From a virus, in the IMG/VR virus record IMGVR_UViG_3300050821_000779, positions 1-25,448 of that record: a stretch of DNA of 25,448 nucleotides; one strand, 5' to 3'. The first letter of the stretch is position 1. Each line of letters begins with the position of its first letter. A model generated the notes under the pieces. The model made no database searches and had not been told where the DNA came from. It saw nothing but the letters and a program-made list of their open reading frames with translations. The translations under genes and the position numbers were made by a program. This document shows positions 6,395-25,150 of the stretch, one piece after another.

Positions 6395-8161
6395 TTACGC
6401 CGACTCCACTTGGCCCATGTACGGGTCCGGTGCACCCGCGGGTGCATCAGCCACGACCACCACTTGCGTGAGGGTCGGGTTGCCTGAATTCGGTAACGGC
6501 GAAGGTGTTCCCACCACTACGTTGCCAAGGTACGGCGCTGCAATGCCGGCCGGAGCTGAGGCAAGTACTTTGACCGTTCCCAAGAACGATGGCTGTCCCG
6601 ACGGTGCGCTTCCCACCACACGCACGCTGCCAGAAAATGAAATCGTCGGGTCGTAAACGTCGCCAGATACGCTGATGGAACCCACAACGACGTTGATGAC
6701 CTGCGCGTGCGCCGTGTTGTCTGCGGCCATATCAATGGAGCAGAACCCAGACGACAGGTTGGTGTCTTGCGCTGAGGTGATTTGCGTGCCATTCTGCAAG
6801 AAGAACAATATGCCATTGTAGACGCCGAACAACACGACGTCCGTTCCGAAAACAAATGGCAGCGAAGTGTTGGTATAAATATCGTTCGCAATGCCCGGAG
6901 CGAAATACGTTATCACGGCGGTGGCTGTGCCGTCTCCGTTGTTCCCGAAGGAAAGATAATAACCGTAGTCACCAGTCGTGTCACTATAGAGCCCAACAGA
7001 TACGAAAGCATCGGAAGGTGAATCCAAGGTAGTTATTTTGAACTGTATGAATCGGTTTGAACCCGCAGCAACCTCTGTAAAGTTTTGCAGGTTGTTCGTG
7101 GCATTGTCAAGAACCGTTGCGGCAATGGCATCGCTAATGATTTGCAGCGCCGTGTACCCATCCGTTGCCGTGGTCCATTTTGTTGGGTCCAAAGGATTTT
7201 CATTCGCCCGTTGCGCATTGTCGGAACCAAGGACCGTGAAGTTGTAACCTGCCTGGGAAAATCCAGCAGAGAAGTTTTGCCCGGTGATGTTCACACCACT
7301 GACCGTTTCGGACTTGCTTGCCGGGGTGAACGTGTAACCGGACAGGGTAGGAGTCACGGTGTAGGCACCGTCCGCCAGCCCTGTGATTGAATAGTTACCG
7401 AACGAATCGGCGGTCACGCTGCCACTTGCGGCACCTGTGTAAGCCACAGCCGCACCAGAGATACCAGCGTTGCCGGAAATCGTAGAGCCTGCCGGCGCCA
7501 ATTTGAATGAAGCGACAAGCCAGAGCCAATCACTATTGTTCGCAGAAGTCGTGAACGTGGCACCGATAGGTGACGTTCCTGAGTCAACCAAGTAAGCGCC
7601 CATGCCGGCTTCAGGGCTACCAGACAATGCTTGCGGCAGTGCGGCACCAGCAGCCACACCTTGACCGCCGTTGAATCCGTTGTTAACCGTTCCAGTTGAG
7701 ATGCTGCCGTTGGTAGCGAGCCCGGCAAGGATGACTTCACCAGCAACGGACGGCGTGATAGTTCCGGTGACAACTGATTGTCCGGAGGTTTGGGACGTGG
7801 CACCATTTTGTGATTCCAGGGACCACGTACCGGCACCACTGAATGCAAAGACTTGGCTGCATGCTGCCTGGCCGACAGGGGTGAACGTGTGCGTGGTGTC
7901 TGTCGTTGGGTTGAAGCAGTAAGCAATGGAGATTGCGGTTGGATGCCCGGTCGCGTTGAACAATGTGCCGTACTGCCACGTATTGTTCTTCTTGTCCGTC
8001 ATGGTGGGAGCGCCACCAGCAAACTGAGTTTGGATGATGGCAACAAAAAGCGTTGCGCCTGTGGTGTCAATGTTGGCCGCACCACCAGACGCGCCCGTGA
8101 CTGTGTTCAGTCCAAAGCCCGACGCAACCGCCATTATGCTCTTGAGAAAGTTAGCAGCCAT
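6395..8161 (-). CDS. Large multidomain structural protein (head or neck decoration/fibre candidate)
   Basis: 588 residues, Gly/Ser/Thr-rich and almost free of charged residues. Residues 1-222 look like a beta-sandwich (TLFVAIIQ, VFAFSGAGTW, GEVILAGLAT, DWLWLVASFKLAP). Residues 226-299 resemble the carboxypeptidase-regulatory/Cna-B type fold (GNYSITGLADGAYTVTPTLS). Residues 305-500 resemble a concanavalin-type beta-sandwich with VSVGLYSDTTGDYGYYLSFG. The C-terminus (about 505-588) has degenerate repeats around APAGxxxPYLGxV. It starts one base before the connector stop region and sits between connector and head closure, a spot where most phages have no gene of this size. Such domains are common on virion surfaces for carbohydrate binding. 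Function not known; a virion surface role is inferred. Confidence 0.7.
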   Translation of the reverse strand: MAANFLKSIMAVASGFGLNTVTGASGGAANIDTTGATLFVAIIQTQFAGGAPTMTDKKNNTWQYGTLFNATGHPTAISIAYCFNPTTDTTHTFTPVGQAACSQVFAFSGAGTWSLESQNGATSQTSGQSVVTGTITPSVAGEVILAGLATNGSISTGTVNNGFNGGQGVAAGAALPQALSGSPEAGMGAYLVDSGTSPIGATFTTSANNSDWLWLVASFKLAPAGSTISGNAGISGAAVAYTGAASGSVTADSFGNYSITGLADGAYTVTPTLSGYTFTPASKSETVSGVNITGQNFSAGFSQAGYNFTVLGSDNAQRANENPLDPTKWTTATDGYTALQIISDAIAATVLDNATNNLQNFTEVAAGSNRFIQFKITTLDSPSDAFVSVGLYSDTTGDYGYYLSFGNNGDGTATAVITYFAPGIANDIYTNTSLPFVFGTDVVLFGVYNGILFFLQNGTQITSAQDTNLSSGFCSIDMAADNTAHAQVINVVVGSISVSGDVYDPTISFSGSVRVVGSAPSGQPSFLGTVKVLASAPAGIAAPYLGNVVVGTPSPLPNSGNPTLTQVVVVADAPAGAPDPYMGQVESA

Positions 8162-8162
8162 C

Positions 8163-9089
8163 TTATCCTCGTGTCGGGCTCATGTCCATAACTCGGTGAG
8201 GCCACAGCATCTGCCGGACGTGGCGTGGCAGCTGTTCGCCATCTTCTTTAACTGGCTCACGGTTTTCGTAGCAATCGGCAACCGTCAGCATGATGGCTGT
8301 AATGATGTTCGCGGGCACATCGGTGGGGTCATCACCATAGCCTGCGTGGTAGTGAATTTGAACGGCATTCGGCACGTAAAGCACGGACGGCCAGTACCCG
8401 GCAGAGTTGCCAGCCGGGAAGATGCCAGGGAACAAACGAGCCGGCTCGCTGACTTTGTCAACGATGTAGGCACCGAACTCACCCGTGGGAATCGGTCCTC
8501 GGTTAATCCAGATTGCCGTGGCCGGAGCCGTCTCAACCGTGATGTCACCAAGGTTCTTTCCCCAAGTCGTAAACTTGATGCCGCTCTTGCCCGTGCCTGT
8601 ATTGGACGGGTCGCCCATGTGAAGTTCTTGGACGTTGCCATTGTTGTCTGCAACTTGGTCGCCGTCGGTGTACACCGTCTGCGGGTACCAAGGCAAGGGC
8701 TGTGGCACAAGGTCTTGGAATGAACTGGTCGCGCTGTCCATGTACGTGATGCGGTCAACGCTCACCAGGGGTGGGCGCCACAGCTTAATCATCTGGCTGT
8801 AATTCCACAGGGTCGTGCTGTACTTGGGCAAAGCGTAATAGCTCGGCGGGTACGCGAGCTGGCTCAGCATGGTGTCGGTGAAATACGGGAAAGCATCCAA
8901 GGTCATTATGAAGCCCTTGGTCATGAACGAACGCCGGCAGAAGTTTTCGCAGGCAATCGTGGCGCCCGAAATCAATCCGGTAATCAGGGCATCGTCGTCG
9001 TCGATTTCGTCCACACGAAGAAAGTTCTTCATCTGGTCGAGACTGACAGGGTCCAACGCTGCCGGAAATTCTACTATCAGTCCAGCCAT
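8163..9089 (-). CDS. Head-tail connector (adaptor) protein, HK97 gp6-like
   Basis: 308 residues. The N-terminus has the gp6-like helical pattern LDQMKNFLRVDEIDDDDALITGLISGATIACENFC (about 17-51), and the C-terminus keeps the closing helix VPANIITAIMLTVADCYENREP. Between them is a long strand-rich region (RPPLVSVDRITYMDS and onwards), longer than the roughly 100-aa HK97 gp6 and closer to the long phiE125 gp8-type connectors. It forms the ring under the portal. ATG lies just beyond the stop of the preceding small gene, and the 588-aa gene follows directly, so the three are probably co-translated. Confidence 0.85.
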   Translation of the reverse strand: MAGLIVEFPAALDPVSLDQMKNFLRVDEIDDDDALITGLISGATIACENFCRRSFMTKGFIMTLDAFPYFTDTMLSQLAYPPSYYALPKYSTTLWNYSQMIKLWRPPLVSVDRITYMDSATSSFQDLVPQPLPWYPQTVYTDGDQVADNNGNVQELHMGDPSNTGTGKSGIKFTTWGKNLGDITVETAPATAIWINRGPIPTGEFGAYIVDKVSEPARLFPGIFPAGNSAGYWPSVLYVPNAVQIHYHAGYGDDPTDVPANIITAIMLTVADCYENREPVKEDGEQLPRHVRQMLWPHRVMDMSPTRG

Positions 9090-9090
9090 G

Positions 9091-9273
9091 TTACCTTACC
9101 GCCTTTCCCAGCCAACGGGCGGTATTCTCGAAAGCCTTCGAGAGCTGGACTGCAAAGTGGCGTTTCTCTGGAAGAGGGGCGAGCTCCGCAGAACCTTCGT
9201 TGAGGCGGAGGATGGCCGGCTGGTCCATCATTTCGAGGACTTGTCCGGTTTCCTTTATGCGGATGCGAATCAC
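9091..9273 (-). CDS. Small head-module protein of unknown function
   Basis: 60 residues, starting at a GTG (9271-9273) preceded by AGGAG at 5 bases. MIRIRIKETGQVLEMMDQPAI followed by LNEGSAELA resembles short proteins often found between capsid and connector genes in HK97-like phages, where the pattern is a strand, a turn, and a small residue-rich loop. No catalytic motif. It is the last gene before the HNH insertion. Confidence 0.7.
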   Translation of the reverse strand: MIRIRIKETGQVLEMMDQPAILRLNEGSAELAPLPEKRHFAVQLSKAFENTARWLGKAVR

Positions 9274-9305
9274 GGGTGCTCCTACTTGATTGTCCCGTCC
9301 TTGCC

Positions 9306-9315
9306 GTGTTACGCT
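9306..9315 (-). repeat. TAACAC box upstream of small head gene
   Basis: Minus strand reads AGCGTAACAC. One of seven related boxes found at gene boundaries on the late strand (see findings). It also lies in the leader of the opposite-facing HNH gene. Confidence 0.4.
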
Positions 9316-9323
9316 AGCAGGTT

Positions 9324-9734
9324 ATGGGTTCATACCATACTGAGTGGCTCTGCTCCTATAAAAGGAATGCTAGAAATCGTGGCCTGACTTGGGAGCTCAC
9401 GGACCAAGAGGCAATTGCCCTGTCCGTTCAGTGCTGCTATTGGTGTGGTGCTCCGCCTCAGCCAAGGACAAGAAATAAGAGGCATTGGAGAACCAGAAAA
9501 TTCAGGACTGTATCCTTCACCGCAAACGGCATTGACAGGGTTGATTCTAAACTCGGGTACACTGTACAGAACTGTGTCCCGTGTTGTTTCGCCTGCAATC
9601 ACAGCAGGTCCAACACGCCAGCGTATGAGTGGCTGGCACATTGCAAGAGAGTTACAGAATTCCAAGAAATGAAGGGCGGCTCTCATAAAGCCGCCCTCCG
9701 GGGTGGACACTCTAATCCGGGTCGTACGGATTAG
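9324..9734 (+). CDS. HNH endonuclease, likely free-standing homing-type insertion
   Basis: 136 residues. Two zinc-knuckle pairs flank the nuclease core: CCYWCG (37-42) and CCFACNHSRSN near residue 87. Between them is NGIDRVDSKLGYTVQNCVPC, the beta-beta-alpha pattern of phage HNH proteins of the IDRxDxxxGY..NC type; the first His of the motif is replaced by Asp/Arg as is common in this subgroup. It is the only rightward gene inside the leftward structural block. A weak TTGATT/TACGCT promoter-like pair precedes it, and its 3' end overlaps the capsid gene stop inside a shared stem-loop. Such genes cut intron-less or competing phage DNA, or support packaging. A homing role is inferred from position. 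Confidence 0.85.
   Translation: MGSYHTEWLCSYKRNARNRGLTWELTDQEAIALSVQCCYWCGAPPQPRTRNKRHWRTRKFRTVSFTANGIDRVDSKLGYTVQNCVPCCFACNHSRSNTPAYEWLAHCKRVTEFQEMKGGSHKAALRGGHSNPGRTD
9673..9697. terminator. 9-bp perfect stem-loop between HNH and capsid genes
   Basis: AGGGCGGCT / AGCCGCCCT with a 7-base loop, inside the last codons of the HNH gene and just after the capsid gene. On the minus strand it is followed by TCATTTCTT, giving a fair rho-independent shape for the capsid transcript. Confidence 0.65.
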
Positions 9735-9740
9735 GAGTGT
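9707..9740. terminator. Long stem-loop spanning the convergent HNH and capsid stops
   Basis: Arms ACACTCTAATCCG and CGGATTAGGAGTGT pair over 13 bp with one bulged base and a 7-base loop. Both stop codons (HNH TAG 9732-9734, capsid TAA 9731-9733) lie in the second arm, so it can serve either direction. Confidence 0.6.
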
Positions 9741-11089
9741 TGCTGTAGGGTGTTGATGGGGTGCGTGCCGGCGTCGAGCAGGTTCGCGTCGAGACGTGCG
9801 AAGGACACGAAGCCGACCTGGCCGAGTTCAGCGTACCGTTCCACCAACTTCATGACCGTGAGGTCTTTCACGCGGCGGGCAATGAATTTCTTCATGTCGC
9901 CGAATGCGATGGTCGTCGCGGAGGGAGCAATGACGGGCATGCTCTGGTTGATGACGTACTGGTACCCATTGATGCGGTCCGGTTCGCCAACGGCAATTCC
10001 GGGCGTCCAAAGAGGACGGCCGAACTTGTCCAGGATGCGCTTCAGTGCGCTGAGCGTCTGGTCGTGGAACATATACTTCGCTCCCCGACGGTAGGACGGG
10101 TCAACGCTGTGCTCCAAGTTCACGAGGTCGCTGTAACCGATGCTGTTCGCGCCGGTCTGTGCTCCGCCCGTGGACTCCGAAGAACCTGCGGCAACGATTG
10201 GCGTTGCGCCAGAAGCGGCGACGGCGGTCAGCAAGCCCGTGGGCTGGCTATTGCCGGTGCCGTTCGTGAGGAAGTTTTCCAAACCACGGCCCCAACGTTC
10301 CGCGAACCGTGCAGCCAGCCACGCTTCGAGGTCAAACGCCGAGTCCTGAATCAATTCCAGCGAAGCCTTGACAAGTCCGGAAGTGAACTTGTAAGCGCCG
10401 AAGTTGATTTGCGAAGCAGTGACGTCCTGCTCGCTCACCGGCGATGCTTCGCCGACGATTGTGGCTTGCTGTGCCGTGTCATTGCTGGTCGGCATCGGGA
10501 GAGGCTGGCCGGTCGCGGTGTCCATGACGGTGATGACGCTGCCGTCGAGGAGAGGCGCGAAATACTTGGTCGCCTGTTCGATTGCATTCACGAAGCCCGT
10601 CGGCACAAAGTAGCCGAGGCCCGTGTACGTGCCGATATGGTTCAACATCGGGGCGCCTTCAACGAGCCCGTCGCGATGTTCTTGTGCGAACTTCAAACCA
10701 CGTTCGAGGGAAACGCGAACGCGCTCGGAAACGTTGGAGATTCCGGCCTGACCGATGGTGCTGTCCGGACCGAAGCCGACGTTGCCAGTGTTCTTGTTCT
10801 TCAGCATGCTGATGAACGCGGTGCGATACTCTTCACCGAGTTTCTTGGGGTCCACGTTCGACAGGTCGCCAAGAGGAGCCGTTCGGTCAACCGGCTGATT
10901 GGCACGCAACTGCGCGTCAATCTTGTCCGCTTGCTCGATGCGTTGGATGTCCGATTCCATCGTGGCGATGTCCGCGATGGCCTTGTCGGCGCTTGCGCGC
11001 GACTCGGGTGTGAGGTCTTGCTTCAGGATTGCGGTGAGCTCAGTGGATGCCTGAGCGCGCTTCTCCCGAAGTTCTTTGAGTTTGCTCAT
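9731..11089 (-). CDS. Major capsid protein, HK97 fold
   Basis: 452 residues. Residues 1-60 form a charged coiled coil (KLKELREKRAQAS...MESDIQRIEQAD), the delta domain acting as internal scaffold and removed by the prohead protease. The mature shell part shows YFVPTGFVNAIEQA, the P-domain/spine region, ASQINFGAYKFTSGLVKASLELIQDS (about 225-250) and FAERWGRGLENFLTNGTG, all typical of HK97-family capsids. Ribosome site AAGGAC is 8 bases before ATG. Preceded by a hairpin after the protease gene and followed by two stem-loops, so the capsid message may be a discrete, stable transcript. Confidence 0.96.
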   Translation of the reverse strand: MSKLKELREKRAQASTELTAILKQDLTPESRASADKAIADIATMESDIQRIEQADKIDAQLRANQPVDRTAPLGDLSNVDPKKLGEEYRTAFISMLKNKNTGNVGFGPDSTIGQAGISNVSERVRVSLERGLKFAQEHRDGLVEGAPMLNHIGTYTGLGYFVPTGFVNAIEQATKYFAPLLDGSVITVMDTATGQPLPMPTSNDTAQQATIVGEASPVSEQDVTASQINFGAYKFTSGLVKASLELIQDSAFDLEAWLAARFAERWGRGLENFLTNGTGNSQPTGLLTAVAASGATPIVAAGSSESTGGAQTGANSIGYSDLVNLEHSVDPSYRRGAKYMFHDQTLSALKRILDKFGRPLWTPGIAVGEPDRINGYQYVINQSMPVIAPSATTIAFGDMKKFIARRVKDLTVMKLVERYAELGQVGFVSFARLDANLLDAGTHPINTLQQHS

Positions 11090-11205
11090 GGGAATTGTCC
11101 TTTTCTTTCCTGCCGTTGGTCTTACAGGTTTCCCACGGTCAGGAGGTATTGCTATCGGTCAGCGCGCTGTCCACGCCTTGTGAACTTCACTGCCCGAAGT
11201 TTATC

Positions 11206-11227
11206 GGGAAGGTGTTACAACCTTCCC
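11206..11227 (-). terminator. 8-bp stem-loop after the protease gene
   Basis: GGGAAGGT / ACCTTCCC with loop GTTACA (plus-strand reading), 7 bases after the protease stop. The loop and stem include a GTAACACCT box. It may terminate or process the message between protease and capsid. The rest of the 145-bp gap holds no gene; it carries only the capsid ribosome site. Confidence 0.6.
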
Positions 11228-11234
11228 AATCTCG

Positions 11235-13112
11235 TTAGCACTTTGCGGAATAAGCGTTGGCGGTCTTTGACTGACTGTTCGCCATTGCTCGGTCCATCGG
11301 GTCCGCTTGGTCGCCAGCATCTTCGACTTTCTTCTGCGCCACTTCTGCACGCATGTGCTGGTCGGCAGCACGCATGTTGCAACGCGCTTGCTCGTGGTCC
11401 CCGTCCTTGTGCGAATCCATTGCGGCGCTCAAATGTTGCTTAGCCGCGAAGTTGTGCTGGTCGGAAGAGCGGGCGTCCTCGCCTTTGCCAGAGCCAAACT
11501 TGCCGGAGTACTTCCGGGGTTGTTCAGGAGCATACCGTACCAGGGACTGAGGAACGCCTGCCGCGGCCATACTGGCGCGGACAACGTACTCCATAGCCCA
11601 AGGGACGGCCTTCTCTTCACTCACTTCAATTCCAAACTTTTTGGCTGCGGCGTGAATCTTGCGCAGCACGCCAGCCTTTGCATCAGCCGGCAGGTCCGTG
11701 GAGCTAAACCGTGCCAGGGCATTGCGAACGTGGGAAGCGTCATGGATAGGCAGCTTCCAGGTTTCCGTCTTGTCCGGGTCGCCAACGTATGCGAACGACT
11801 TGGCGGTCAAATCTTTGCCGGCAACGCGCTTGGTACGCGTGAAGCCGCCACGGGTTTCGTCGGTTGCTTCAGCGCCAGTGTAGAAGACGTCTCCGGTGTA
11901 AACGACGCCACGAGCTGCCCCTGAACCTGTGGGAGCCCATCGGTTCTGGCAACGGCAATCGCCTTCCGCGCAGTCACCGTCATCCGTGTGATTGTCATGG
12001 ACCGACAGTGGGTCAAAGTCGCGCCCAATCAAAGCACGGTCAAAGTCTTCGTCCAGTTCCTCGTCCATGTCGTCCAGCAGTTTCTCTTCCTTGCGGAAAA
12101 CCGGGAACTGCTTCCTGAACTCGGCAATCTTGGCAGCCGTGCGGTCAGAAGGAACCCAAACCTTCTCTACTTCAACGGGAGCGCCGAAAGTGATTTGCTC
12201 ACCCACTGGCTTGCTCTCGTCGTGGACATACTGAATCTGGAAGTTGGCGCCGGTCGAGCACTCAACCACGATGACAAAGTCTTCGTAGGTTTCGCATTCG
12301 TAGAATCGGCCGCAAGGATACGGGCACGCCTGGCCTTCGACAGTCTCTGCCGGAAAGGCAACGTTCAGGGCTTTGCAAACTTCGGAAATGGCGTCCTCAA
12401 ACGAATCCAGGTCGGTGTCAATGGCGTCAATTATTTCACGCTTCTCGCCGTTGAACTTGGTGTGCGCCTTGGCGCGGAGGTCTTTCAAAGAAATTGGTTT
12501 CACGGTAGTAGTCCTCTGAATATCTGCCGGAGGTGTTACAAGGGCAGCATTCTTAGAATCAACGGCGCTGCGGAGTTCAACAGGAACCTCGGCGCAGTTG
12601 CGGGCATAAACTTCCGTCCCGGAATAGCACGGGTACGTTACAGGGCTGACATCGTGGAGGTTCAAGTCCGTGATGTCACGCGCCACGAAATAGCTGCCAT
12701 CGGTGTCCTGCGCTTCGCTCCACGACTGGCCACCGTCAGGAATCGTAAACGCAAAAGAGCAACCGTTAATGTCCCCGCGTTGAATTGACGTGTGCAAGTC
12801 GCGGGCAGTCTGGGTGTTGGGCAGCTCGCAAGAGTAGAACAAGCCGCGTGCGTCCTGGCGTAGCGTCAGGGTGCCGGAGGTCGTCCGGCCAAGTACGAAA
12901 TTCGCATCGTGGTTGAACAAGCAAACCACGTCCTGCTTCTCAGTGAGGGCACGGGTGAAAGCACCGGGCTTAATCTGTTCACGGAATCCCGGGAGTTGAG
13001 CACGGGTGTTGAATACCGACGCGTAGCCTTCAATGCGGAGCGGGTCTGCATCTCCGGAACCGCCAACGGCTCGGCACTCTGTTGCTTGGATGTAGCGGAT
13101 TTCGCGTAGCAT
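11235..13112 (-). CDS. Prohead protease (HK97 gp4/U35-like) with long C-terminal extension
   Basis: 625 residues, about three times the usual 200. The first 180 residues are a full prohead protease: GYASVFNTRAQLPGFREQIKPGAF, catalytic His68 in CLFNHDANFVLGRT, and catalytic Ser119 in RGDINGCSFAF. The rest is unusual: an acidic middle (DDMDEELDEDFD), a Cys-rich patch (DGDCAEGDCRCQNR), a segment SFAYVGDPDKTETWKLPIHDASHVRNALARF resembling DUF6582 found on phage proteases, and a Gln/His/Asp-rich tail. It cleaves the capsid delta domain and probably itself during head maturation. A good internal GTG start at residue 204 may give a separate C-terminal product. Start ATG has GAAGGGAA upstream. Confidence 0.92.
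   Translation of the reverse strand: MLREIRYIQATECRAVGGSGDADPLRIEGYASVFNTRAQLPGFREQIKPGAFTRALTEKQDVVCLFNHDANFVLGRTTSGTLTLRQDARGLFYSCELPNTQTARDLHTSIQRGDINGCSFAFTIPDGGQSWSEAQDTDGSYFVARDITDLNLHDVSPVTYPCYSGTEVYARNCAEVPVELRSAVDSKNAALVTPPADIQRTTTVKPISLKDLRAKAHTKFNGEKREIIDAIDTDLDSFEDAISEVCKALNVAFPAETVEGQACPYPCGRFYECETYEDFVIVVECSTGANFQIQYVHDESKPVGEQITFGAPVEVEKVWVPSDRTAAKIAEFRKQFPVFRKEEKLLDDMDEELDEDFDRALIGRDFDPLSVHDNHTDDGDCAEGDCRCQNRWAPTGSGAARGVVYTGDVFYTGAEATDETRGGFTRTKRVAGKDLTAKSFAYVGDPDKTETWKLPIHDASHVRNALARFSSTDLPADAKAGVLRKIHAAAKKFGIEVSEEKAVPWAMEYVVRASMAAAGVPQSLVRYAPEQPRKYSGKFGSGKGEDARSSDQHNFAAKQHLSAAMDSHKDGDHEQARCNMRAADQHMRAEVAQKKVEDAGDQADPMDRAMANSQSKTANAYSAKC
12501..12540 (-). promoter_or_regulatory. 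Possible internal translation start within the protease gene
   Basis: On the minus strand: GTAACACCTC, then AGAGGA, 8 bases, then GTG (12501-12503) beginning KPISLKDLRAKAHTKF. This starts a 422-residue C-terminal product at residue 204 of the long protein. The same GTAACAC box lies upstream of several true gene starts here, which suggests a former or active gene boundary. Confidence 0.45.
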
Positions 13113-13129
13113 GACAGTTCCCTTCTTTA

Positions 13130-13139
13130 GTGTTACGGG
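13130..13139 (-). repeat. CCCGTAACAC box upstream of protease gene
   Basis: CCCGTAACAC on the minus strand, 18 bases before the protease ATG and before the GAAGGGAA ribosome site. Same sequence as at 15132 and 18234. Confidence 0.5.
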
Positions 13140-13177
13140 TTACATATACTCTCCGTACTATTTTCCTATTCGCGAAA

Positions 13178-15124
13178 TTAGGCGTTTAGGATAGCTTCCA
13201 GGAGTTTGTCAAATTCAATGGCGGACTCACCGTCCAGGTCCGTAGCCCAACCTTCGCCCTTGCGGGTGAATAGCTCGGTCGTATAGGCCCGGATGAACTC
13301 ACTGGCGTCCGTCGGCTCGTCAAACGATGCCTCAATCATGGCGGAAGCGATTGGCCCGAATACTGTGGTGTAGTCAGCCACTGTTGCCTTCTTACGGAAC
13401 GAGGCACGGCCAACTGCGTCACGGTACATGCCGGCGAACACACGGGTCAGGTCTGCCCGCTTCTTGGCTTTCTTGGCGCCTAGCTTATTCTTGCCTGGCG
13501 TGGGCTTGTCATCTTGTTCGTCTGCGTTCGGGTCTTTGCCGGAGTGCTTCGCAATCTTAACGGAAGCGTCAGCGGAAATCTGGTGCTTCTGTAGGTCAAG
13601 GGCCATCTTCGCCTTATCCTGTTTCTGCTGGTCCTTAACAATCGGGTGGTCCCCAATCGGCGTGACGTTTGAAGGTGTGGCAGCCAACGTACCATCTTCC
13701 AGGCCGTCGGTAACTGCCTGTGAGTGGGCGGAAGCGGTAGCGGCGTCAACCATATTGTTCGGCATCCAGTAAGAATCACCGGAACCATCTTCAACGGGGT
13801 TCATGCCTTCCAACTCATGGATGTCATTGGTGTTGAGGTATCCCCACTGCTTACCGGACCCGTAGAACGTCGAACGGCTGGCCGCATCGGGGTACATCAT
13901 CTTGCGGAGGTCAAACGAGGCAAAGAACTTGTTCGCTGCCTGGCCGACCTGCGGGAACAACTTGTATTCCATTTCCTGTTCGAGGTCCACAGCGTGCGGG
14001 TCAACGCAGAAGAGTTTGAATTCAATGCTCGACTGCTCGACGGTGGACTTGCCGGCGTCGTCGCCGTTGATGCCCACCATGTGACCAGGGACGTTGAAGA
14101 ACGAAGCAATCTCAAGCCGTTGGTGCTGGCGAGTCTGCAACATCTGGCCCTCTTCAGGGCTGGAACCCGTCTTGGTATACGTCACGCCAGGCGGTAGCAC
14201 GCCGGTCTTATGTTGGTTCTCACCACCGTGGGATTCAGCCCACGAACGTTTGAGCACTTCCCACTGAACGTCGCTCATGTCGCCGGGGACGCCCAAGATG
14301 CCGTGAGGGATAGCACCGTTGCCGAAGAACTTCGCACCGTACTTTTCAGTCGCAAGTGCCAGGCCGATTGCTTGGCGGGCCAAGATAACAACGTCCTGAC
14401 CGATGCGGCCGTCGAGCGACAGCCCAGGGAAGTGCATCATGTCTTCCGCCAGCACCAGCCGGCGATAGCCATAGTTTTGATTATCGTTGTCCTGCTCCAT
14501 GATTTGTGCGTCGCGCAAAGCGTCGAACGTTTCATAGAACATGGTGCCCTGCGGGTACGTGGTGCCTTCCATAGTAATGGAAGACAACGAACGCACGGGG
14601 CGGGTGCGGGCGGGGTTCCGCGGCCACAACGCTACGATGCGGTTGTATTGGTCGCGTTCAATTTCGGTGAAGGCATTTCCCCAGAGCAGCTTATGCACCA
14701 TCATCGTTCGGCGCCAAGTCGCAGAGGTCATTTCTGGGTTCGGGCGTTTGGCGAGTAGGGTAGACAACGGATGGGAATATGTAACCTTCTTGCCGGTGCG
14801 GTCATTCTCAAACAACCGTTGGCAAACGTTGAGCGGATGCGAAGCCATAGCGTTCGCAATAATGGTCACGCACTGGAAAACTGTGGAGGCTTGCAGCGCC
14901 GTCATTTCCGAGACACGAAGTCCGGAGTCGGTGCGACCACCATTGAAAATGTCGAGGAGCCATTCGGCGGGATAGCTTAGAGGTGTCTGTGGATTTTCGA
15001 GAGACGAACGCAGAATCGTCCAGGCCAACTTCATCCTGTCCGTCACGCCAATCTTCTTCCGCTGTTGCTGCGCCACAGTGTCCACCTTGGACTGACCCGC
15101 ATCTTGCGGGGTACTGCGAATCAT
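13178..15124 (-). CDS. Portal protein, HK97 family
   Basis: 648 residues (HK97 portal is 424). The core, about 60-430, matches the family: VSEMTALQASTVFQCVTIIANAMASHPL, HPLSTLLAKRPNPEMTSATWRR, LLWGNAFTEIERD, and the crown region EVLKRSWAESHGG with TRQHQRLEIASFFNVPGHMVG. The last 200 residues are an extension: Gln/Lys-rich helix (VKDQQKQDKAKMALDLQKHQ), Lys-rich linker, then a globular helical end FIRAYTTELFTRKGEGWATD. The portal forms the dodecameric DNA channel and is the docking site for terminase. No clear ribosome site precedes ATG 15124; the CCCGTAACAC box lies there instead. Confidence 0.95.
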   Translation of the reverse strand: MIRSTPQDAGQSKVDTVAQQQRKKIGVTDRMKLAWTILRSSLENPQTPLSYPAEWLLDIFNGGRTDSGLRVSEMTALQASTVFQCVTIIANAMASHPLNVCQRLFENDRTGKKVTYSHPLSTLLAKRPNPEMTSATWRRTMMVHKLLWGNAFTEIERDQYNRIVALWPRNPARTRPVRSLSSITMEGTTYPQGTMFYETFDALRDAQIMEQDNDNQNYGYRRLVLAEDMMHFPGLSLDGRIGQDVVILARQAIGLALATEKYGAKFFGNGAIPHGILGVPGDMSDVQWEVLKRSWAESHGGENQHKTGVLPPGVTYTKTGSSPEEGQMLQTRQHQRLEIASFFNVPGHMVGINGDDAGKSTVEQSSIEFKLFCVDPHAVDLEQEMEYKLFPQVGQAANKFFASFDLRKMMYPDAASRSTFYGSGKQWGYLNTNDIHELEGMNPVEDGSGDSYWMPNNMVDAATASAHSQAVTDGLEDGTLAATPSNVTPIGDHPIVKDQQKQDKAKMALDLQKHQISADASVKIAKHSGKDPNADEQDDKPTPGKNKLGAKKAKKRADLTRVFAGMYRDAVGRASFRKKATVADYTTVFGPIASAMIEASFDEPTDASEFIRAYTTELFTRKGEGWATDLDGESAIEFDKLLEAILNA

Positions 15125-15131
15125 ATGCTAG

Positions 15132-15141
15132 GTGTTACGGG
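15132..15141 (-). repeat. CCCGTAACAC box upstream of portal gene
   Basis: CCCGTAACAC on the minus strand, 8 bases before the portal ATG, where a ribosome site would be expected. Confidence 0.5.
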
Positions 15142-15150
15142 GTAGTTCCG

Positions 15151-15196
15151 TATTCTACGCATTATTCTACGCATGCTAGATTCTACGCATGCTAGA
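15151..15196 (-). repeat. Short tandem repeats between TerL and portal
   Basis: Three direct copies of TTCTACGCAT (plus strand); the last two extend to the 16-base unit TTCTACGCATGCTAGA, joined head to tail. The unit contains the palindrome GCATGC. The last copy supplies the TerL stop codon. Confidence 0.75.
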
Positions 15197-17114
15197 TTGT
15201 CCGCACCTTGAACCTGTCCGGGTCATCCTTCTTATTGAGGTCGGGGTGCGCCAGGGCACGGTTCATGGCAATCACAGTTGCCACGATGCCGTCAATCTTG
15301 CTCTTGGACTTGCCCTTGTCCGGACGTTGGTTGCCATTTGAATCCAGCAGCAGTTGAACGTTGCTGGCGTTCCAGCGCAACACGGGATTGTTATAATGCT
15401 CCACGGCCTTGCCAGTAATCAGTGCGGTCAGGTTCTTGGTCGGCCCTGACATATGCTCGTAGAACGGTGGCACCTTCACGGCCTTGATTCCGTCCTCAAC
15501 CATCTTGGGTCCAATCCAACCTGTGTTCCAAGGGTCAAACCCAACCTCATGGATGCGGAAGATGCTTTTGAGTGTCCGTATCTTGGCATGGATGACTTCC
15601 TGCGAAATTGCCAGCCCAGGGCACGTATCAATAAACCCGGCGCGTACCCAAGTTTCGTACGACTGCTTGGCCTGTTTGCCAAGGTCGTCCATAAGCCCTT
15701 CCGGAATCCAGAAGAAGGGCAAGATGCTCCACTTGTCGTCCTTCTCATACACCGTGCGCAGCTTGCAGTTTTCCGGTATCTCTTCCGTGCGTTCGCCGGC
15801 CTTCAACCGTTCAAGGTTCTGGATGTTTGTCTCCGGCAGAATCTTGACCTCACCGCTCGCCATCTTAAAAATACCGTGGCCTGCTGGTATCTCAGGCACC
15901 TGCTGTGTTTCGCACGGCGGGAACAGTAGCACCACCGCGGCCAAGTCGTTGGTGCTCGCAAGGTCCATACCACCGAGACAGATGCGGCCCTTGAGCTTGT
16001 CGAAAGCAAACTTCCTTTGTTCAATAGCTTTAGCATGTTCGCCAGCAGCGCAGCATGCTTCCCACTTGCCGTCCAGCAGCCAAGCGGTGTTCTGTGAAGT
16101 CCAGACGTTAAGATGCTTGCGCAGGAATTCGTTCTGCGCCGCGGGTTGTTCTTTGGCCTTGATGAAGTTTGGCCGGATGGCTTCCAAGCTGGTGGAGATA
16201 CCAAGGTTCGGGTTGGCCTTAATCCAGCAGGACTCGTCATCCCATTTGTCGTCTTTGTCCAGACACGCAATGTAGGCGAAGAAGTTGTCGTCTACCGCAA
16301 TGCCACCGCACACCTTGACGCCATAGTCGCGCTGGTCCCAGCAAATGCCTTCGCGTGTGAACCCGGCAGTGGTGATGCAAACGATTAGGGGTTGGCTACG
16401 GGAGCCGGTGGCCGTGTTCAAAACGTCGTACATGGTGCGGTCTGGGTGCTCGTGCAGTTCGTCAATCAGGCCACAGTGAATGTTCAAACCGTCCAAGGTT
16501 CCGGAGTCGCTGGCCAGTGGTTCAAACTTGGAGGAGGACTCGTCAACGTGAAGGTTATTGCGCCAAGCCTGGATGCGGGACTTGAGGAAGGGCGACACCT
16601 TCACCATGTCCTGTGCGGCCTTGAACACGATTTTGGCTTGGTCCTTTGTGGTGGCAGCGCTGTAGACTTCGGCGCCAGGTTCACCATCGGCGTACATCAT
16701 GTACAACCCAATGCCGGCAATGAACGTGGACTTCCCGTTCTTACGGGCAACCTCTAGGTAGGCTTCACGGAACCGGCGCTGGCCGTTGTCCTTGCGGATG
16801 AAGCCGAAGAGATTGGTGAGGATGAAGACCTGCCAGGGTGCCAGTAAGAATCCGGACGTCTCAACCTGTTTGGCCCATATACCTTTCGTGTGGCGGAGGA
16901 ACCCAAAGAAGCTGACCGCGTGCTCGGCGGCTTTATCACTGAAGTAAAACGGGCAAGTGTCTTTCTCGTTCTGGGCACGGATGAGGTCGCGCAGGAAGCG
17001 GACACAGCACTTGACGACGAGCTTACCGGCAACAACGCGGCCGGCAATAACGTCTTGGGCATATTTGATGGAGGTTTCGTAGGCGGGGAGCTGCTGAATG
17101 TAATCGTGAGCCAT
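15192..17114 (-). CDS. Terminase large subunit (TerL), HK97-type
   Basis: 640 residues. ATPase domain: Walker A-like EVARKNGKST (121-130) and Walker B CGLIDELHEH (214-223; D218, catalytic E219), followed by the coupling segment LIVCITTAG (243-251). Nuclease domain: acidic residues D384 in GGMDLASTND, D527 in GFDPWNTGW, and D608 in KSKSKIDGIVATVIA, the RNase H-like metal site. It drives DNA into the prohead and cuts concatemers. An in-frame TGA lies 21 bases before ATG 17114, so this start is forced; the ribosome site is weak. It lies downstream of TerS across a 278-bp gap. Confidence 0.97.
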   Translation of the reverse strand: MAHDYIQQLPAYETSIKYAQDVIAGRVVAGKLVVKCCVRFLRDLIRAQNEKDTCPFYFSDKAAEHAVSFFGFLRHTKGIWAKQVETSGFLLAPWQVFILTNLFGFIRKDNGQRRFREAYLEVARKNGKSTFIAGIGLYMMYADGEPGAEVYSAATTKDQAKIVFKAAQDMVKVSPFLKSRIQAWRNNLHVDESSSKFEPLASDSGTLDGLNIHCGLIDELHEHPDRTMYDVLNTATGSRSQPLIVCITTAGFTREGICWDQRDYGVKVCGGIAVDDNFFAYIACLDKDDKWDDESCWIKANPNLGISTSLEAIRPNFIKAKEQPAAQNEFLRKHLNVWTSQNTAWLLDGKWEACCAAGEHAKAIEQRKFAFDKLKGRICLGGMDLASTNDLAAVVLLFPPCETQQVPEIPAGHGIFKMASGEVKILPETNIQNLERLKAGERTEEIPENCKLRTVYEKDDKWSILPFFWIPEGLMDDLGKQAKQSYETWVRAGFIDTCPGLAISQEVIHAKIRTLKSIFRIHEVGFDPWNTGWIGPKMVEDGIKAVKVPPFYEHMSGPTKNLTALITGKAVEHYNNPVLRWNASNVQLLLDSNGNQRPDKGKSKSKIDGIVATVIAMNRALAHPDLNKKDDPDRFKVRTI

Positions 17115-19298: not shown

Positions 19299-19375
19299 TG
19301 GTTGCGGAGGTCAGATTTGAACTGACGACCTCAGCCGTATGAAGGCTGCGAGCTACCAGGCTGCTCCACTCCGCA
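19299..19375 (-). tRNA. tRNA with CAT anticodon, initiator-like scaffold
   Basis: 77 bases with encoded CCA. Acceptor TGCGGAG/CTCCGCA, D stem GAGC/GCTC with loop AGCCTGGTA, anticodon stem CAGCC/GGCTG with loop TTCATAC (anticodon CAT), variable AGGTC, T stem GTCAG/CTGAC with loop TTCAAAT, discriminator A. The D-arm and its loop match bacterial initiator tRNA, including the A11-T24 pair. But base 1 pairs with A72 (T1-A72, not the C1 x A72 mismatch), and the three GC pairs GGG:CCC of the anticodon stem are changed to GCC:GGC. It lies 5 bases upstream of the gp10-like gene on the same strand. Confidence 0.93.
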
Positions 19376-19436: not shown

Positions 19437-19464
19437 TTGTGATTCCCAGGCTCCGGCGTACAAT
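19437..19464 (+). promoter_or_regulatory. Sigma70-type promoter PL1 of the rightward accessory genes
   Basis: TTGTGA (19437-19442), 16-base spacer, TACAAT (19459-19464), followed by the leader GGGTACAGTAAGAGG. The leader is repeated almost exactly at 21730-21744. Confidence 0.72.
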
Positions 19465-19489
19465 GGGTACAGTAAGAGGAGAACAGCAC

Positions 19490-21700: not shown

Positions 21701-21744
21701 TTGAACTTTTGTCGGGCTCGCCGTATGATGGGTACAGTAAGAGG
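21701..21744 (+). promoter_or_regulatory. Sigma70-type promoter PL2 with leader shared with PL1
   Basis: TTGAAC (21701-21706), 17-base spacer, TATGAT (21724-21729), then GGGTACAGTAAGAGG, identical for 15 bases to the PL1 leader. Stronger hexamers than PL1. No AGTACT element is seen here. Confidence 0.78.
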
Positions 21745-23137: not shown

Positions 23138-23330
23138 CCAAGTGTGGCAGTGGGAGGGCTCCTGGTGGCGTCCAGTCTACCGCAAGGGCCAACGTTGCCG
23201 CATTCTTGTGTGGGCGCCGGCCATGAACTCTGTCCTCGTTGAATTTGAGGACGGGTTCAAGGTCAATACGTCACGGTGGGCAGTTCGCCCGGTACGGCAG
23301 GGTGAGGTTGAGCAGTCGTCTTTCTTTTAG
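23076..23330 (+). CDS. Small beta-rich protein of unknown function (84 aa)
   Basis: ATG 23076, 6 bases after GGGAG, overlapping the polymerase-fragment gene by 62 bases; a later ATG at 23118 lacks a ribosome site. After a disordered start, QVWQWEGSWWRPVYRKGQRC and RILVWAPAMNSVLVEFEDGF then NTSRWAVRPV look like a small SH3/KOW-type barrel. Its stop overlaps the convergent glycosyltransferase stop. Confidence 0.7.
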   Translation: MPTRDSGRTPATNPMISSAFDQVWQWEGSWWRPVYRKGQRCRILVWAPAMNSVLVEFEDGFKVNTSRWAVRPVRQGEVEQSSFF

Positions 23331-24388
23331 CCGTTCATCAGGCGTGAGAACATTTTCTCGTACCATTTGCGAGGCGTGCCCAAGAAGGCAAGCCACTGTT
23401 CTATTGCCCTGGCGTTGTGCCGGCGCAGAGCTTTGAATCCGCGCACATTGCTGTTAGGATTCTTCAGCAGTCCCAGGCCGACGCTTGCGATGTCCAGGGC
23501 ATTGTCCGGGTCTGCCTTCCAGTCGTCCGGCGCCCAAGAAATTGCTGGCCCGACAACTGAAGGAACACCTGCGTGAATTCCGTCCGCAGTGACCATGTTG
23601 AAAGACTCGGTGAACGAAGGCTGCAAGAGCAGGTCCATGCGGCCAACGAGTTCCACGAAGTCATCCCAATACTGCCAGTCATGTTTGATGAGCGTGACGC
23701 CAGTGTTCTCGAAGACTTGGTTGATGGCGTTGGAAATGCAATTGCCGATTTCTTCTCCACCGCCACTCATATGGAACTCAACGGGCAAGCCGAGCCGGCG
23801 CTGGATTACAGTTGCGGCACCAGCGGCAGTCATGAAATTCTTGTAAGGCCGCAGGGCACCGAACGCTCCGATGCGGATGGGCACTCCGGTATGAGTCTTG
23901 ACTTTGCACTTGCCGACGGGATACAGGTTCGGCAAGTGAACAATCTCCCCGCCGTACGAGCCCATCATCCAGTCCGTAAAGCGATTGCAGTTGCCGCCAA
24001 CATGGAGGTTGGAATAATTCTTGGACAGTTCGTGGTATGCCCGGAGCAGGCGAACACCTTCTGGGTCCGCTTGCAGAAAGCCGACGTTGCTGTGCGACAG
24101 AATGGCAAACTTGGTGCCGGTGAAATTTTTCACCAGGGCTTCAAGGTCGTACACGCTCAGCCAAGGTGCGGAGATGACGCAGTGTGTGATTTGTTCGTGA
24201 TGAGTTTCGTTGTAGTGGTCAATGGCGGTAACGATGTCAACGTTATGGCGAACCGGGAAGACGTGGACATCAATGCCCGCGTCCCGGAGGACTTTGGCTG
24301 TCGCGAAGCCGGCCACGTTGAGGCCGACACACGAACTGCGGCACCATGCCGCAAAGTCTTTGAACACGAGTGCTAGATGGATGCTCAC
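23327..24388 (-). CDS. GT-B glycosyltransferase, GT4-like
   Basis: 353 residues from GTG 24388 with AGGAG 6 bases upstream. N-domain: VGLNVAGFATAKVLRDAGID (22-41) and strand THCVISAPWLSVYDLEALVK. C-domain: RIGAFGALRPYKNFMTAAGA (the IGaFg...KN nucleotide-sugar start), FHMSGGGEE, and FTESFNMVTADGIHAGVPSVVG, the GT4 acceptor-to-donor segment; the second Glu of the EX7E pair is Asp. It probably uses a UDP- or NDP-sugar. In phages such enzymes glycosylate DNA bases, capsid proteins or host surface sugars; no modified-base pathway is seen here. It faces left, ends against the small barrel gene and stands alone. Confidence 0.88.
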   Translation of the reverse strand: MSIHLALVFKDFAAWCRSSCVGLNVAGFATAKVLRDAGIDVHVFPVRHNVDIVTAIDHYNETHHEQITHCVISAPWLSVYDLEALVKNFTGTKFAILSHSNVGFLQADPEGVRLLRAYHELSKNYSNLHVGGNCNRFTDWMMGSYGGEIVHLPNLYPVGKCKVKTHTGVPIRIGAFGALRPYKNFMTAAGAATVIQRRLGLPVEFHMSGGGEEIGNCISNAINQVFENTGVTLIKHDWQYWDDFVELVGRMDLLLQPSFTESFNMVTADGIHAGVPSVVGPAISWAPDDWKADPDNALDIASVGLGLLKNPNSNVRGFKALRRHNARAIEQWLAFLGTPRKWYEKMFSRLMNG

Positions 24389-24427: not shown

Positions 24428-24457
24428 TTGACGCTGTTCCGGGTGATGTGGTACACT
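24428..24457 (+). promoter_or_regulatory. Sigma70-type promoter upstream of the tmRNA
   Basis: TTGACG (24428-24433), 18-base spacer, TACACT (24452-24457). The predicted start lies about 130 bases before the acceptor half. A second consensus TTGACA occurs at 24470-24475 without a good -10. Confidence 0.55.
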
Positions 24458-24569: not shown

Positions 24570-24880
24570 CCGCGTCACCCAAGACAACGCACGTAAACGG
24601 CATAGAGGCTCCATTTCGGACCGGGGTTCGACTCCCCGCAGGTCCACCGAACCGCCCATGTACAGGAAACTCAAACGCGGAGGCGAATGAGTCCGCAAGG
24701 GCGGTGCGGCGGGCCTGAATCGGTTTCGACGGATGGACAGCTGCTATCAACCGCGTGCCGAATAGCCTACCCGACGCAAGGGAAGGTAAACCAAGAATGC
24801 CAAACTGGCATCCAAGGTTCGTGCTTTCGTGAACGGGGCATTCGTGCCTCAGTTCGCGGCCTGCGCGGCCTAGTTGTACC
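24570..24880 (+). ncRNA. ssrA: Circularly permuted two-piece tmRNA gene
   Basis: The acceptor half precedes the coding half. Acceptor half: GGAC just before the T-arm, T stem CGGGG/CCCCG with loop TTCGACT (24622-24638), acceptor strand CAGGTCC (24639-24645), discriminator A and CC. After a 62-base intervening segment, the coding half begins GGGCCTGAATCGGTTTCGAC (24711-24730), the classic tmRNA 5' end. GGGCCTG pairs with CAGGTCC over 7 bp including G3.U70, the alanine identity pair. H2: GGATGG/CCATTT, AGC/GCT, CTAT/ATAG and CCG/CGG pair the two halves in order. A tag frame ends TTCGCGGCCTGCGCGGCCTAG (24853-24873). tmRNA rescues stalled ribosomes with SmpB and tags proteins for degradation. End points are approximate. 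Confidence 0.9.
24799..24873 (+). other. tmRNA proteolysis-tag reading frame
   Basis: The frame ends in AACAA-stop at 24871-24873, similar to the usual Ala-Ala ending of tags. With resume codon GCC (24799, followed by AAA, matching the common GCN-AAN pattern) the tag has 24 residues: AKLASKVRAF at one end and VPQFAACAA at the other. With GCA at 24838 it would be the 11-residue AFVPQFAACAA. The first is preferred because of its distance from the likely first pseudoknot, but it is not settled. Confidence 0.6.
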
Positions 24881-24916
24881 CGCGGCAGGGCCGGACCAGA
24901 ATCCGGCCCTGCCGCG
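24881..24916 (+). terminator. 15-bp perfect stem-loop after the tmRNA coding half
   Basis: Arms CGCGGCAGGGCCGGA and TCCGGCCCTGCCGCG with a 6-base loop, followed by ATTTCGAT. Eight bases after the tag stop. Likely terminates or protects the 3' end of the coding piece. Confidence 0.75.
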
Positions 24917-24934
24917 ATTTCGATGGGAGCCCAA

Positions 24935-25150
24935 GTGAAAGTCCAAACACCAAAATTTATCAGCATCACCAGTTCGGCGGAATCCATATCGGGCGGGACG
25001 TACCGCTGCATCGGGAACGTGTTCCTCTACGGCCTAACAGCCGAGGGCGAAGTCTACCAGTGGCAGGGACCATACGCGGCGTGTCGTCCAGGTGAAGTTG
25101 ACCGAGAAGGCAAATGGCACCTGTGCGCGAACGGTGTCCGGACTCCATGA
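24935..25150 (+). CDS. Small beta-rich protein of unknown function (71 aa)
   Basis: Chosen start GTG 24935 after GGGAGCC; an ATG at 24923 in the same frame overlaps that site. KFISITSSAESISGGTYRCI then VFLYGLTAEGEVYQWQGPYA resembles short phage proteins with a repeated-strand LYGLd.eG.VwqW motif. No function known. Its frame continues past the TGA stop into the next small gene. Confidence 0.65.
   Translation: MKVQTPKFISITSSAESISGGTYRCIGNVFLYGLTAEGEVYQWQGPYAACRPGEVDREGKWHLCANGVRTP

Follow-up and report, generated by a model that had tools for sequence, protein, structure and literature searches.

The window, by which we mean the whole 25,448-base stretch analysed here (IMG/VR virus contig IMGVR_UViG_3300050821_000779), carries on its plus strand an intact circularly permuted ssrA gene (24584-24916), which is a divergent member of the already known phage two-piece tmRNAs and, as read from its sequence, is a real and probably functional phage gene. 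The locus is likely to encode an RNA for trans-translation that would be processed by the host, charged by AlaRS and delivered by SmpB. A phage-borne, circularly permuted tmRNA in two pieces had already been proposed for this place in the initial annotation, and the proposal is borne out by a match of the gene to the Rfam family RF04321 (tmRNA_permuted), by the ARAGORN verdict (tmRNA*, that is, permuted tmRNA), by the co-folding of the two predicted mature pieces and by the tailed-phage genes of the same contig.

The acceptor piece, or 3' tRNA half, comes first (24584-24648, +) and was delimited by the RF04321 and beta_tmRNA alignments together with the two-piece co-fold. It contains the 3' strand of helix H2 (24589-24615), the GGAC motif (24618-24621) directly before the T-arm CGGGG TTCGACT CCCCG (24622-24638), the 3' half of the acceptor stem, CAGGUCC (24639-24645), and A73 followed by CC; the 3' end is encoded as ACCG, not ACCA. 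An intervening segment of 62 nt (24649-24710, +) lies between the two mature pieces and, by likeness to known permuted tmRNAs, would be cut out of the precursor. The mRNA piece (24711-24916, +), followed by the RF04321 alignment as far as 24873, includes the 5' tRNA half, the 5' strand of H2, the tag frame and a 3' hairpin. It begins with the 5' half of the acceptor stem, GGGCCUG (24711-24717), which pairs 7/7 with 24639-24645 and includes the G3.U70 pair, the two halves standing in reversed order, 65 nt apart. The D-loop-like GGUUUCGAC (DNA letters GGTTTCGAC) is placed at 24722-24730 by the RF04321 alignment, and the 5' strand of H2 (24732-24758) pairs with 24589-24615 in interrupted blocks which the co-fold shows in the right order: GCACG/CGUGC, CGG/CCG, AUAG/CUAU, then GGC/GCU and UCCAUU/GAUGGA. 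The complete T-arm preceded by GGAC, the 7-bp acceptor stem with reversed halves and G3.U70, and the four-block interrupted H2 that had been read by eye were thus all recovered, the last with at least four blocks paired. Upstream of the resume codon, folding gives a hairpin in the PK1 position (24765-24787, +); only this first stem was identified in the folds of the window gene, and a second stem of the PK1 pseudoknot was not found. Behind the tag, a 15-bp hairpin with the loop region ACCAGAAU (24881-24916, +) matches the ACAGAA hairpin of relatives and probably closes the mRNA piece at its 3' end. A promoter-consensus scan returned one match against 0.2 expected, a sigma-70-like sequence TTGACG-18-TACACT with an extended -10 TG (24428-24457, +; 9/12), which is a candidate promoter for the tmRNA.

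The tag frame (24799-24873, +) was assigned from the AAUGC resume context of RF04321 and from the open frame. It starts at the resume codon GCC, in the context AAGAAT-GCC, and encodes 24 residues, AKLASKVRAFVNGAFVPQFAACAA (codons 24799-24870), before the stop codon UAG (24871-24873), so that the end FAACAA agrees with the 24-residue tag ending in AACAA suggested at first; the gene falls within RF04321 and the frame ends in small hydrophobic residues. The tag printed by ARAGORN (VPAAGPDQ...) was rejected, as it starts at the wrong codon. Among approximately 160 viral tags read with a simple script, 110 end in LAA and the CAA end of the window tag is unique. Of the comparisons made with the window tag, only that with the tag of the viral contig L235 gives a similarity beyond chance (matched by 4/1000 shuffles), at least 65/1000 shuffles matching the similarity of each of the others. 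Since the similarity is not significant against most relatives, membership in a tag family by alignment was rejected, and the similarity of the tag to those of relatives is suggestive only.

To place this architecture among viral genes, 178 non-redundant viral permuted tmRNAs, window included, were compared. The acceptor stem pairs 7/7 in 178/178 of them when three linker lengths are permitted (159/178 with two), against 22% when partners are shuffled between genes; G3.U70 is present in 177/178, pairs 1, 2 and 7 are fixed as G-C and pairs 4-6 vary in compensating ways. The spacer lengths are two-humped (4-28 and 50-90 nt), which the two search ranges explain in part. Only 4-5 nt separate ACC from the first acceptor base in L194 (7339-7385), L195 (5690-5736) and L198 (4197-4243), and the same is seen in L207, L211, L219, L226, L227, L231, L247, L256, L257 and L265; with such a spacer the acceptor stem of the precursor would be capped by a loop of about 8 nt. 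The idea of a short intervening segment as a phage-only trait was dropped, as the segment is also short, at about 6 nt, in the bacterial gene L173. Three further viral permuted tmRNAs (L212, L214 and L243) have long tags containing AANNIVAFSR, which we take to resemble cyanobacterial ssrA tags preceded by extra residues.

The window gene has the lowest RF04321 score of all permuted genes scored here, and this score, taken together with the ACCG end and with a CAA tag end found in no other viral tag read, makes an impaired function possible. The gene could then be a decayed or competing tmRNA, transcribed and tagging poorly, possibly acting as a decoy for SmpB or for alanine charging, and a tag-less phage form (DS6A) has been reported as an inhibitor of endogenous tmRNA in E. 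coli (PMC11915505). We regard this as unlikely, given that the tRNA-like pairs, G3.U70, the T-loop, the resume context and the 24-codon frame are all intact and that an encoded CCA is also missing in 20/177 of the other viral permuted genes.

Two-piece tmRNAs are not new to phages. A 2021 survey of 18,146 phage genomes (PMC9004378) counted 402 with tmRNAs, of which 133 were unique and 53 of these two-piece, and a list of 79 bacteriophage tmRNA sequences is available (PMC11915505). The survey describes a two-piece tmRNA in the methylophage Melnitz, an alphaproteobacterial-type gene with a riboswitch and therein unlike the window gene, and proposes as roles that the hijacked machinery is kept up or that host proteins are recycled. 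A permuted tmRNA is annotated in the isolated Stenotrophomonas phages Yut2 and Marzo, and our motif scan of IMG/VR returned at least 119 viral contigs, a second motif with a shorter spacer returning 98; 50/50 of the records scored from the first scan, and 15/15 in a second batch partly overlapping these, lie above the RF04321 cut-off. The view expressed in the initial annotation, that the known phage tmRNAs are one-piece, is contradicted by the survey, by Yut2 and Marzo and by the scans, and because two-piece tmRNAs are published, annotated and common in phages, the claim of novelty fails.

Unannotated permuted tmRNAs were also found in Xanthomonas phage XacN1 (L307, 773-1072; tag ANANTFDYALAA by ARAGORN), in Bordetella phage PHB04 (L305, 782-1023; tag ANDDYIRAAA by ARAGORN) and in Tunturiibacter phage Tunturi_5 (L304, PP885688.1, 769-1065; 86.4 bits, missed by ARAGORN), the genes of these three phages and of Yut2 and Marzo scoring 86-123 bits on RF04321. 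Tunturi_5 infects an acidobacterium and has a genome of 309 kb; the phage's genome paper reports 43 tRNA genes and does not mention a tmRNA in its text, and direct translation gives a tag of 34 residues, AKNSPVVRGTAKVLSFARKFVPAVSSTRAFAMAA. Yut2, Marzo, XacN1 and PHB04 resemble the window in having a permuted ssrA in a tailed phage, but their genes score 104-123 bits and encode short tags according to ARAGORN (VAANDDSYTVRIAA in addition to those of PHB04 and XacN1). BLAST of the window gene against the named phages gave no match. With the families RF04321 and RF01850 the window gene shares the order of the pieces, the TTCGA T-arm, the G3.U70 stem, GGUUUCGAC, the interrupted H2 and the resume context, whereas its tag does not follow the AND...ALAA pattern, its 3' end is ACCG and its score lies under the betaproteobacterial cut-off.

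By the tRNA-like domain, the closest relatives are the viral contigs L100-L102 and L193-L200, which keep the gene layout of the window and have tags of 26-28 residues such as AKNTDSAKNAKVLAFPARPAVALQMAA; the acceptor piece of the L100 type is approximately 75% identical to that of the window over 74 nt. Together with Tunturi_5, these genes resemble the window gene in their long tags starting with AK or AT, in a KV(L/R)xF core and in a CAGAA hairpin after the tag, and differ from it in tags that end in MAA and count 26-34 residues. Among these relatives the permuted tmRNA stands next to a terminase in L100 and L102 and, according to gene calls made by eye, between probable tail genes in L101. 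The long-tag genes of the KVxAF type have so far come from viral contigs and from one phage of an acidobacterium; that they form, together with the window gene, a phage-specific branch of permuted tmRNAs, whose long basic tags would send rescued proteins to another fate than the host tag does, seems improbable to us.

The record itself is a tailed-phage fragment. Its minus strand encodes the large terminase subunit (15192-17114, phrog_9, E 7e-163), the small terminase subunit, portal, protease, capsid, head-tail connectors and tape measure, the plus strand carries small genes from 19.4 kb onwards, including one that belongs to the phage family phrog_421, and a second contig (L004) matches window positions 6668-15673 at 99.98%. 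A tRNA with a CAU anticodon (19299-19375, -; 61.4 bits) lies beside the packaging and connector genes. Ahead of two plus-strand start codons there is a 26-nt repeat, 88% identical between its copies (19454-19479 and 21719-21744, +), with TACAAT or TATGAT and a TTG-type hexamer upstream where none is expected by chance; these sites are probable early promoters. On the minus strand, divergent from the tmRNA gene, the ORF 23327-24388 is glycosyltransferase-like (GT4 type, just below the Pfam cut-offs) and found no relative in the phage or IMG/VR searches. No SmpB gene was found among the window ORFs scanned.

Since ssrA is a classic integration site, the gene could also be the ssrA of the host itself, at the edge of a prophage integrated there. 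Its position 530-860 nt from the contig end would fit, as would the fact that neither flanking ORF, 23327-24388 (-) or 24923-25150 (+), has a match in the annotated phage collection. This origin is nonetheless quite improbable: the window ORFs scanned include no integrase, no part of the tmRNA gene turned up a second time in the window, a narrow pattern for a gene of the window type had no match in 84,980 species genomes, the matches of a wider pattern were confined to three betaproteobacterial genomes whose acceptor stems differ and none of which has a gene of the window type, and the closest relatives sit in viral contigs. In 398 proteobacterial genomes, BLAST with the gene as query found short matches only, mainly to the T-arm. 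Assignment of a host was given up in view of these short matches, of the missing bacterial gene of the window type and of terminase relatives that are at most approximately 41% identical and spread across many hosts. An alphaproteobacterial origin was rejected, as the alpha-type genes read have a different T-arm, GGGGGCGGUACCC; among the genes studied, L165 is an alpha_tmRNA, confirmed by a model match.

The search with covariance models of permuted tmRNAs and the folding of both pieces, which had been suggested as checks, both favored a permuted gene. On RF04321 the window gene scores 66.4 bits (E 5.5e-11, full model 1-213), above the gathering cut-off of 47 bits. In a 0.9-kb scan beta_tmRNA (RF01850) matched with 44.8 bits (E 2e-12), T-arm then D-arm in permuted order, which is below its gathering score of 84. 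Co-folding (-135.5 kcal/mol) joins the two predicted mature pieces in a complete tRNA-like domain with the interrupted H2. The folding energy of the precursor lies 8.7 sd under that of dinucleotide shuffles, and for the mRNA piece z is -5.7 relative to shuffles. Partners pairing 7/7 with CAGGUCC occur at 15 sites in the 25,448 bases; the window gene combines complementary halves with the permuted order, G3.U70 and a TTCGA-type T-loop.

The RF04321 score has to be read with care. Across 299 proteobacterial genomes there is a class of matches at 47-65 bits, and the five members that were inspected (L296-L299 and L301) proved to be ordinary one-piece tmRNAs. They reach 105-121 bits on RF00023 and 55-65 bits on RF04321. 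The cut-off of 47 bits does not separate the permuted from the one-piece form, and 66.4 bits alone is therefore not proof of a permuted order; with no match to the one-piece model RF00023 listed in the window, it is the order of the parts and the acceptor pairing that establish the permuted state. Such scores of genuine one-piece genes might suggest a chance match, or that a one-piece tmRNA has been mistaken for a permuted one; both readings are refuted at the level of sequence, since the T-arm and the 3' half of the acceptor stem precede the 5' half, the two acceptor halves pair 7/7, and the RF00023 match that those genes give is lacking.

Permuted tmRNAs undergo spacer removal, CCA addition, charging by AlaRS, delivery by SmpB, tagging and proteolysis. 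For the phage-encoded gene favored here, transcription would start from the candidate promoter some 130-160 nt upstream of the gene, and the 62-nt segment would be removed by the tRNA-processing enzymes of the host. As the gene encodes ACCG, completion of the 3' end would fall to the host CCA-adding enzyme. The two mature pieces would be held together by the acceptor stem and H2, the host AlaRS may charge the RNA with alanine through G3.U70, and host SmpB would deliver it to stalled ribosomes, tagging and proteolysis of the rescued proteins then following. The likely benefit for the phage would be that ribosome rescue and the turnover of broken proteins are maintained in infection, while host RNAs decay. 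The initial annotation had put forward such maintenance of rescue as a possible role, alongside a possible re-routing of rescue tagging by the phage.

Taken together, the window gene adds a divergent and intact case to the known, little-studied phage two-piece tmRNAs, and the scans show how common phage-borne permuted tmRNAs are in IMG/VR. For annotation, they imply that in the region of 55-66 bits an RF04321 score cannot by itself tell the two gene forms apart, and that permuted tmRNAs stand unannotated in phage genomes already published, such as those of Tunturi_5, PHB04 and XacN1. Should the unusual tags be different from those of the hosts, these phages would offer a natural test of the importance of the tag sequence in infection.
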